From Chloroflexota bacterium (GTDB lineage: Bacteria; Chloroflexota; Dehalococcoidia; CAUJGQ01), in NCBI GenBank assembly GCA_963170165.1, contig CAUJGQ010000065.1, positions 1 through 42,246 on the forward strand: a DNA stretch of 42,246 nucleotides. Direction: 5' to 3'. This document shows, piece by piece, positions 7,670-10,316 of the stretch (its first letter is position 1; every line of letters starts with the position of its first letter). Both the position numbers and the translations under genes were made by a program. The notes beneath the pieces were generated by a model. It did no database searches, had not been told where the DNA came from, and saw only the letters and a list, made by a program, of their open reading frames with translations.

Positions 7670-8707
7670 TCAATCTCGGACCTCGCCGGCCTGGGGGCCG
7701 CTGCGCAACAGATGGATGATCTCAACTTCGAGCGAGGGCAGCATACGCCCGACGATTGCCATGAGCACTTCGCGCGTCCGGCCCTCGACGAATGAGCGGG
7801 CGCCGGTCAGATCAATAGCAGCCATCTTGACGTTACCGAGCAGTTCCCACCAGTGGAAGGCGGCTGGCTCCACCTCGATGCCGGAAGCTGCGCGATACAG
7901 CCGTATCGCCTCGCGCCGCGTCAGCAGGCCGCCCACCTTGCCATCGCGCGCGTATTGCCACTGCTTGATGCTGGCCCAGGCCAGGTCCTCCAGTGGGTCG
8001 CCAAAGTGCGCCATCTCCCAATCCAGGACGCCGCGGATGGTTCCGTGCCGGTCGAACAGGAAGTTGCCGGTGCGATAGTCGCCGTGCACCAGGGCGACGG
8101 CGCGGGGCGGCGGTGGAAGGTGCGTGCCCAGCCAGGCCAATGCCAGCTCAAGCACAGGCTGCGGTTCCAGCTCTTCCTTGTGCACCACCGATCGCCATTT
8201 CTCCAGTTCTGTCGCCGCACACTGCGCGGGCTCCGGCGCCGTTCCCAGCGCTGACAGGTCCAGTCTCCGCCAGTCTAGCTGGTGAATGGCGCCGAGAATC
8301 GCCATTTTCTGACGGCCAACCTCGTCATGGATGCGATGCATAGCGGGCGCCATCAGCGCGGCCGGCGCGGCGAAGCAGTGGTCGATCCGCTCCATCACGA
8401 AGAACGGCCGGTCCAGCCACCGGCCATCAAGCTCCAGCCAGTACGCCCGCGGGGCGGGGATGCTTGATCCTTCCAACGCGCGGTAGACGGCATACTCGGC
8501 GCCGCGGTCAGACTCCAGCAGTCCGGCATCAGGGTCGCGGCGGAGGATGTAACCCTGCTGCCGCGGTCCGGCGTCGCCTTCCCACGCGGCATCAAACGAC
8601 CACGTCTCACGCGAGGCGCCGCCGGGTATACGGCGCAATGCGGTCACGCGCACATCCCGCGCCCCCGCGATCTGCGTGGCGAGAAAGGCCCCGATTCGTG
8701 CTTCCAT
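7670..8707 (-). CDS. phosphotransferase family protein (APH/choline-kinase fold)
   Basis: A 345-residue kinase-like protein of the aminoglycoside-phosphotransferase fold. The catalytic loop HGDYRTGNFLFD and the metal-binding GVLDWEMAHFGDPLEDLAW are both intact, and the N-lobe shows the PGGASRETW phosphate-binding segment. Relatives of this group are often encoded with acyl-CoA dehydrogenases, and in ACAD10/11 the kinase is fused to one; that fits the acyl-CoA setting here. The likely substrate is a small hydroxylated compound rather than an antibiotic. Start 8707 (MEARIGAFL) is preferred because of AGGGG just upstream; a 14-residue longer form has no family support. Confidence 0.88.
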   Translation of the reverse strand: MEARIGAFLATQIAGARDVRVTALRRIPGGASRETWSFDAAWEGDAGPRQQGYILRRDPDAGLLESDRGAEYAVYRALEGSSIPAPRAYWLELDGRWLDRPFFVMERIDHCFAAPAALMAPAMHRIHDEVGRQKMAILGAIHQLDWRRLDLSALGTAPEPAQCAATELEKWRSVVHKEELEPQPVLELALAWLGTHLPPPPRAVALVHGDYRTGNFLFDRHGTIRGVLDWEMAHFGDPLEDLAWASIKQWQYARDGKVGGLLTRREAIRLYRAASGIEVEPAAFHWWELLGNVKMAAIDLTGARSFVEGRTREVLMAIVGRMLPSLEVEIIHLLRSGPQAGEVRD

Positions 8708-8768: not shown

Positions 8769-9443
8769 TTACGGCGTAGGCGTGGGGCTGGGCGACGGTG
8801 ACGGCGTTGCAGTCCCGTCCGATAGCCGCACCCGTGCGGTGACGGTCACGCCCTCGGGGCCGGCGCTGACACTGGTTACGGTAGCGGGGTAGTCCTCGAC
8901 CACCGCCCGCACGCGCGAGTTGATTGGATCCTCGGCGATGCGCTCGACGTTGCCAGGAACGGGCAACGGACCAAGCTTGGCGCTGACCACTTTCATCCGC
9001 ACCATTCCCTCCTCCACCACCGGGCGCATCTCAATCGTGCTTGGCACGCCACGACCAAGCACGGCGACGTCGCCGAGCACGATCACCCGGTCTTTCTTGG
9101 TCACCACGCGCACGTTTTGGAGCGGGACCGGTGAGTTCCCTTTGGCGACGGACTGGCGTATCGAGGCGGTGAGCAGCCCGGGACTGAGCGTCATGATCAG
9201 GTCCGGCGCGGGGTCGCGCGGATCCCCGGGGACGTTGACATCGCCGAGCCGGTCCTCTAGCAGGATCTGAAAGGCGGCCAGCAACAACACGCCGGCGACC
9301 ATCCCTGCAGCGACTAGCCCCGCGGGGAAGGCCCAGGCAGTGAACTGCCGCCATCGAGTGCGCGGCGGCGGTGGTGGCCGCTGATCCGCCGGAGGTGGCG
9401 GCGGCGGCTCGTCGGCTGGGGGCAGCGGTGCCGGTACGTCCAT
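8769..9443 (-). CDS. membrane-anchored DUF2993/YpmS-like protein
   Basis: A 224-residue protein with a very proline-rich cytoplasmic N-terminus (residues 1-28), one membrane span at about 35-60, and an extracytoplasmic beta-rich domain. That domain contains the pattern LSPGLLTASIRQSV, PVPLQNVRVVTKKDRVIVLGD and LGPLPVPGNVERIAE. This resembles the lipid-binding DUF2993 (LmeA) and YpmS/DUF2140 families, which act at the cell envelope. It ends in a Ser/Pro/Thr repeat tail (TPSPSPSPTPTP). A c-di-AMP riboswitch lies in its leader, suggesting that expression follows osmotic or envelope signalling. The assignment to these families is by pattern and should be treated as tentative. Confidence 0.75.
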   Translation of the reverse strand: MDVPAPLPPADEPPPPPPADQRPPPPPRTRWRQFTAWAFPAGLVAAGMVAGVLLLAAFQILLEDRLGDVNVPGDPRDPAPDLIMTLSPGLLTASIRQSVAKGNSPVPLQNVRVVTKKDRVIVLGDVAVLGRGVPSTIEMRPVVEEGMVRMKVVSAKLGPLPVPGNVERIAEDPINSRVRAVVEDYPATVTSVSAGPEGVTVTARVRLSDGTATPSPSPSPTPTP

Positions 9444-9510
9444 GCCGCTGGCATCTCACGACAGAGCGTCGATCTGCGTGAAAGTTGACGCTGTGTGCTA
9501 TCGAACGTCA

Positions 9511-9550
9511 AGAGTGGGTGGCCGCAAGGAGCTAGCCGGCCACCCACTCT
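9511..9550 (-). terminator. 14-bp perfect hairpin, candidate riboswitch expression platform
   Basis: Bases 9511-9524 and 9537-9550 are exact inverted complements (14 bp, 12-base loop). The hairpin lies between the riboswitch aptamer and the start codon of the membrane protein gene. It is strong enough to be a transcription terminator, but no run of U follows it on the minus strand, so the mechanism is open. Confidence 0.6.
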
Positions 9551-9570
9551 CGCCCGCAACCGCCACTACT

Positions 9571-9700
9571 GGTCTGCCTACGGGGTTAGCTGTCGGGTTC
9601 GGCCCCAGCAGGTGAAGGCTCGCCTACCCCGGTCCGGGACCGGGGATTCACCCCAAGATTGGTTCCCCCGCCGGCGTCCGCCATTGGTCGAGACGCCGCT
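9571..9700 (-). promoter_or_regulatory. cyclic di-AMP riboswitch (ydaO/yuaA)
   Basis: On the minus strand this leader contains, in order, the signature blocks of the ydaO/yuaA motif: GGGGGAACC (9669-9661), GGGGTGAATCC (9654-9644), GGGGTAGGCGAGC, and GACAGCTAACC (9594-9584) followed by GTAGGC (9581-9576). The order and spacing match the known c-di-AMP aptamer with its two pseudo-symmetric ligand sites. The outer limits are approximate because the P1 stem is not clear. In known cases c-di-AMP binding switches off the downstream gene, often a cell-wall hydrolase or osmolyte/potassium transporter. Here the downstream gene is the DUF2993/YpmS-like membrane protein. The rest of the 465-base divergent intergenic region (9701-9908) shows nothing else I can name. 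Confidence 0.9.
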
Positions 9701-9908
9701 CAGCGCTGGCCATCCGGCTGCGTGGTGGCAGCGTAGCGGCCCCGCCACTGCCCTGGCAATCCCTCGTGACACGATAGGTCACCGGTCCTACCAACTCGGC
9801 GCGCGCTGCCTACGCTGTTCAGCGTATGGCGGGCGGCCACGCTCCACGGGACGGTAGAGACATGACGCCTCCACCAGCCGATATCTGGGAGGCGAAGAGG
9901 GACCAATC

Positions 9909-10316
9909 ATGACCGCTTTGGGAAGGTTCATCATACCGATCCTGGTGATGATCGCTGGGGTCGGGTTCGTCGCCTGCACGGCCGAGGATGAGGCAAGCGT
10001 CGACTCGGGTATGGCTACCGCCGAACGATCGGCAAGTGACCTGAAAGCGGATGCGAAGGATGCGTGGGCGAGCCTGCGCACTGATGGCGAACGCCTGGTC
10101 GATCGCGTACAGACCCGCAACGACACAGATGCGAAGCAGCAGTTACTGCAGAGTTGCCGTGACGCGCTGGAGCGATTGCGCAAGGCTGAGGTTGACTCCG
10201 CCGGCCGGGTGGACCAGCTCTGCACGCGGATTCGCGACACTGACGTCAACAACAGCAGCGCTTGGACGGACATCAAGTCAGAGTTGCAGCGGCTCAATAC
10301 GGAAATGGGCAGCTAA
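9909..10316 (+). CDS. small putative lipoprotein
   Basis: A 135-residue secreted protein. The N-terminus is a signal sequence ending in GFVAC, so Cys23 is a plausible lipid-attachment site, although the lipobox is not ideal. The mature part is charged and helical, with heptad-like stretches (SDLKADAKDAWASL, ALERLRKAEVDSAG) and two further cysteines that could form a disulfide. No family is recognised. It is divergent from the riboswitch-controlled gene and stands alone on the plus strand. Confidence 0.72.
   Translation: MTALGRFIIPILVMIAGVGFVACTAEDEASVDSGMATAERSASDLKADAKDAWASLRTDGERLVDRVQTRNDTDAKQQLLQSCRDALERLRKAEVDSAGRVDQLCTRIRDTDVNNSSAWTDIKSELQRLNTEMGS

Follow-up and report, generated by a model that had tools for sequence, protein, structure and literature searches.

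A predicted c-di-AMP riboswitch ahead of a YpmS/LmeA-type membrane protein gene in a Chloroflexota bacterium

The minus strand of a 42,246-nt contig from a Chloroflexota bacterium of the class Dehalococcoidia (the whole stretch analysed, hereafter the window) carries a c-di-AMP riboswitch aptamer in what we take to be the leader of the mRNA for a YpmS/LmeA-type membrane protein. We favor the reading, with a probability of about 0.68, that this is a functional riboswitch that operates as an OFF switch through a strong hairpin close behind the aptamer. The element is confirmed, at the level of sequence, as a genuine further case of a known riboswitch class and is predicted to bind c-di-AMP, and the position of the YpmS-like gene makes it a plausible, if unusual, target. 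The features of the locus are collected in Table 1.

Table 1. Features of the riboswitch locus in the window
Feature	Position	Strand	Evidence
Candidate promoter, TTGCCA-18-TACGCT, ~30 nt upstream of the aptamer match	9730..9759	-	Read from sequence; below the consensus-scan threshold
c-di-AMP (ydaO/yuaA) riboswitch aptamer	9559..9700	-	RF00379, 66.0 bits, full length; 45/46 conserved class columns
Aptamer pseudoknot, 5' strand, CUGCUGG	9605..9611	-	Complementarity test; pseudoknot of the ydaO crystal structure (PMC5393176)
Aptamer pseudoknot, 3' strand, CCAGUAG	9566..9572	-	Complementarity test
Putative expression platform, 16-bp hairpin with 12-nt loop, no U-tract	9509..9552	-	z = -4.83; 0/200 shuffles as stable
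Putative regulated gene, 224-aa single-pass membrane protein with YpmS/DUF2140-like outer domain	8769..9443	-	ORF; Pfam DUF2140, E 9e-6; phylum homologues
APH-type phosphotransferase gene, possibly co-transcribed	7670..8707	-	Pfam APH, 1.8e-30; start read from sequence

Results

The aptamer is full length with an intact core

A covariance-model search of the window matched the Rfam c-di-AMP riboswitch model (RF00379) over its entire length (model positions 1-134), with a score 28 bits above the gathering score of 38 bits and E-values of 2.9e-13 in the window search and 7.1e-15 in a search of the whole genome. Conserved columns were defined as those with at least 90% conservation among 56 aptamers from the same bacterial class (n = 46), and the single mismatch of the window aptamer to these columns falls on a base of P1. 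This helix is weak, with two non-standard pairs in the alignment to the RF00379 model. The good score and intact core bear out the preliminary description of the element as a riboswitch of this class on this strand, for which the covariance-model scan had been proposed as a check. The interval given there (9571-9700) designates the same element, although its 3' edge lies 12 nt short of the end of the match. Within the class set of 56 the window aptamer is closest, at 58% identity, to a sibling in the same genome (L005). Two other riboswitches of the class (L027 and L064) are without the exact AGCT core word in their 3' part.

The 3' tail of the aptamer is predicted to close a pseudoknot. A complementarity test identified a 7-bp helix between the two strands listed in Table 1, at the position of the ydaO pseudoknot. 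The ydaO crystal structure contains such a pseudoknot, which we read from the crystallised sequence as a pairing between CUCCUUCG in the loop of the last hairpin and CGAAGGAG in the 3' tail (PMC5393176). As the helix lies outside the scored Rfam structure, it provides independent support for the riboswitch. None of the loops from the 55 other aptamers in the same-class set forms a 7-nt pairing with the window tail, and the helix has therefore been kept through changes specific to the window. This cross-pairing test was applied to the window only, whose pseudoknot sequence differs from the common CUCUUU/AAAGAG; in an all-versus-all comparison of the 56 aptamers the separation is only moderate, with 48% of cross pairs reaching 7 bp because most aptamers share CUCUUU/AAAGAG.

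c-di-AMP signalling in the genome and the class

The genome encodes a CdaA-type diadenylate cyclase (TIGR00159, 237.6 bits relative to a cut-off of 188.8), the kind of enzyme for which a search had been suggested. Neither of the two outcomes named beforehand as refuting the riboswitch, a poor covariance-model score or a genome with no such cyclase, was thus obtained. The gene cdaA directly precedes one whose product looks like CdaR/YbbR, and the genome further encodes a PgpH-like phosphodiesterase with 7TM and HD domains. The genome search returned four RF00379 matches including that of the window, and the three siblings precede a CPA2 cation/proton antiporter (L005), which is a usual c-di-AMP theme, a membrane glycosyltransferase of family 2 (L003) and a Cys-containing protein of 115 aa with no recognised family (L002). 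L002 is the highest-scoring riboswitch in the genome; the 115-aa protein, which contains a CDIC...CNDC motif, is encoded by the first plausible ORF downstream of it (L006:5699-6046).

Across the class, c-di-AMP riboswitches are present in 127 of 294 genomes, with up to 10 in a single genome. The ORFs 3' of these riboswitches (loci L015-L070) include members of glycosyltransferase family 20 (6 of 75), which is the trehalose-6-phosphate synthase family and represents an osmolyte route, and family-2 membrane glycosyltransferases (4 of 75). Little literature on c-di-AMP riboswitches before glycosyltransferase families 20 and 2 was found in the library searched.

The expression platform is a strong hairpin without a U-tract

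The leader is bounded upstream by the candidate promoter, and two of the sibling riboswitches have related sequences at similar places (TTGACA-18-TAGGCT and TTGACA-17-TAAGCT). Downstream, the hairpin begins 6 nt 3' of the aptamer match, has a folding energy of -35.9 kcal/mol with its flanks, and forms part of the minimum-energy structure computed for the complete leader. A consensus scan found neither a terminator-like site nor a U-tract 3' of the hairpin. The hairpin looks too stable for an antiterminator to compete at equilibrium, and equilibrium folding of the leader gave no clean terminator/antiterminator switch. When the RNA is folded without the 3' arm of the hairpin, the GGGUGGC sequence of the 5' arm may pair with the GCCGAACCC strand of the aptamer. 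For at least 21 of the 56 riboswitches in the class set, the aptamer has a hairpin shortly after it and then a U-rich tail, an arrangement that fits a termination OFF switch. Intrinsic terminators are the typical, though not universal, OFF platform of this riboswitch class in Firmicutes.

The window aptamer and L005 (L005:1501-1652, 65.9 bits) are the two lower-scoring riboswitches of the genome. They have GUAGGCAGACCAG in common after the core, and strong hairpins without a U-tract follow in both, which suggests a common variant platform.

These features can be assembled into a working model. Transcription would start about 25-30 nt upstream of the aptamer, and at high K+ or turgor CdaA would make c-di-AMP, two molecules of which would be expected to occupy the pseudo-symmetric aptamer, locking both P1 and the pseudoknot in place. 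The locked aptamer would free the hairpin to form, so that expression of the YpmS-like gene is presumably lowered, through early termination even though no U-tract is present, or because the start region becomes inaccessible. At low c-di-AMP the GGGUGGC arm would instead be held by the GCCGAACCC strand and the gene would be read.

The absence of a U-tract would also suit an arrangement in which c-di-AMP is bound by the aptamer and acts on translation, or by some other route independent of termination, with the hairpin as a structural spacer and the start region as the part that is switched. The L005 sibling before the antiporter shares this lack, and there is precedent in the c-di-AMP riboswitches of Streptomyces coelicolor rpfA and Corynebacterium glutamicum nlpC, both without canonical terminators, the latter of which appears to act on translation (PMC9960051). 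However, no clear Shine-Dalgarno sequence that could be sequestered precedes the start codon of the YpmS-like gene, about 115 nt separate the aptamer from that codon, and the terminators behind many class riboswitches argue for a transcriptional ancestry. Control of this kind is a real contender to which we would give somewhat less than an even chance.

The downstream gene encodes a YpmS-like membrane protein

Reading on from the leader in the same direction, the YpmS-like gene is the first ORF to have family support. The sequence of its product shows a proline-rich N-terminal part, a single hydrophobic helix and, after it, an outer domain. The hydrophobic stretch spans approximately residues 36-60, and a helix is placed at residues 31-66 in an otherwise poor AlphaFold2 model that was built on the single sequence and is unusable (mean pLDDT of 45). 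A search of PDB sequences with the protein found no meaningful relative. The match to DUF2140 (PF09911, 25.8 bits) lies below the curated cut-off of 34.3, and LmeA/DUF2993 (PF11209) gave no match at E-values up to 0.1. In a six-member alignment of the family five members match DUF2140 (one of them above the cut-off) and three match LmeA, formerly DUF2993. Of the original designation as a DUF2993/YpmS-like membrane protein, the single-pass topology and YpmS likeness are therefore retained, while DUF2993/LmeA is matched by relatives alone. Of 60 near genomes searched with the protein itself, 5 (counting its own) gave a match, and the family profile recovered members in 132 of the 400 phylum genomes searched. 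The second match of this profile in the window's genome is an LmeA protein.

Both DUF2140 and DUF2993 are predicted to contain TULIP lipid-binding domains, with DUF2140 located outside the membrane of monoderms (Levine, PMC6791001), and LmeA supports envelope lipoglycan synthesis under stress (PMC7643837). By this kinship lipid is a probable ligand of the window protein, on the outer side of the membrane, and the description of its outer domain as lipid-binding-like is a reasonable one.

The YpmS-like gene had been taken to be the only one downstream of the riboswitch, but the APH-type phosphotransferase gene lies 61 nt further on in the same orientation and has an AGGGGA ribosome site of its own ahead of the ATG at 8707. 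On the other side of the riboswitch, a divergent plus-strand ORF (9909-10316) starts about 150 bp from the candidate promoter and encodes a small lipoprotein-like protein of 135 aa (VACTAEDE) with no convincing family.

The riboswitch-gene pair was found in one genome among those checked

Pairing of the riboswitch with a YpmS/LmeA-like gene was found only in the window's genome, among about 95 other such genes checked. No RF00379 match turned up beside the DUF2140-like genes of relatives in the class, and the covariance model found no match near the first 20 phylum loci except at the window itself. An aptamer motif that detects all 56 known aptamers and has zero matches in shuffled sequence likewise gave no match around 29 of 30 phylum loci, the thirtieth being the window, or in 60 further upstream regions. 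The nearest genome, from the same family (G001), has three c-di-AMP riboswitches, and a YpmS-like gene was not detected in it. The suggested search for the same pair in relatives thus found none, and comparative evidence for control of the YpmS-like gene is therefore lacking. The broader proposal, which links c-di-AMP to an envelope lipid or cell-wall function throughout the lineage, is not supported at that level. Similarity of the leader DNA to plasmids was searched for and none was found. In two genomes of another family of the class (f33; L045 and L014/L072) the YpmS-like gene directly adjoins a 5S rRNA gene on the opposite strand.

The uniqueness of the pair among the homologues would also be expected if an intact riboswitch did not control the YpmS-like gene at all, with transcripts ending at the hairpin, constitutively or under regulation, and the gene transcribed from a promoter of its own in 9445-9510; the riboswitch might then have been left behind by a rearrangement or the loss of a gene. 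That the complete leader folds with this hairpin at minimum energy is compatible with such an ending, and a TTGACG sequence directly after the stem could serve as a -35 element. However, no acceptable -10 element lies 16-18 nt after TTGACG and the scan found no promoter-like site, there is no other co-directional gene with family support in between, and the near-perfect conservation of the aptamer core and the pseudoknot argues against a relic. We consider this explanation unlikely. That the RF00379 match arose by chance or belongs to a different RNA class is refuted by its E-value of 2.9e-13, its margin over the gathering score, the intact core and a pseudoknot outside the scored model, even though the aptamer falls in the lowest-scoring riboswitch tier of the genome and has a weak P1.

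Discussion

c-di-AMP is best known for the control of potassium, osmolytes and cell-wall hydrolases. The favored reading of the locus, an OFF switch in the leader of the YpmS-like gene, carries a further proposal, namely that c-di-AMP acts directly on the RNA for a membrane-anchored protein of the TULIP lipid-binding type and switches it by means of a platform that has no U-tract terminator. We advance this proposal tentatively and regard it as somewhat less likely than not. If true, envelope lipid handling would join K+, osmolytes and wall hydrolases in the c-di-AMP regulon, and a riboswitch on a TULIP-like protein would offer one of the few hints at what YpmS/LmeA proteins do. With one genome found to carry it, the pairing represents a lead rather than a rule.

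Among characterized protein families, the window protein shares with YpmS/DUF2140 (PF09911) the single N-terminal membrane helix and a weak but significant match in the outer domain, while differing in its score below the Pfam cut-off and in its proline-rich N-terminus; we know of no link between YpmS and c-di-AMP riboswitches. LmeA (PF11209), the mycobacterial envelope lipid-binding protein, is matched by relatives in the window protein's alignment and not by the window protein. Among RNA elements, the closest parallel is the ydaO/yuaA (kimA) riboswitch (RF00379), with which the window has in common the full-length aptamer, the core sequence, the position of the pseudoknot and a hairpin close behind the aptamer, whereas the imperfect P1 and the hairpin without a U-tract set the window apart. 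To our knowledge a YpmS-like target is not of the kind reported for that riboswitch. The C. glutamicum nlpC and S. coelicolor rpfA riboswitches resemble the window in having no canonical terminator and an envelope-facing target, but the genes behind them encode a cell-wall peptidase and a resuscitation-promoting factor, respectively, whereas the target in the window is a candidate TULIP-like lipid-binding protein.
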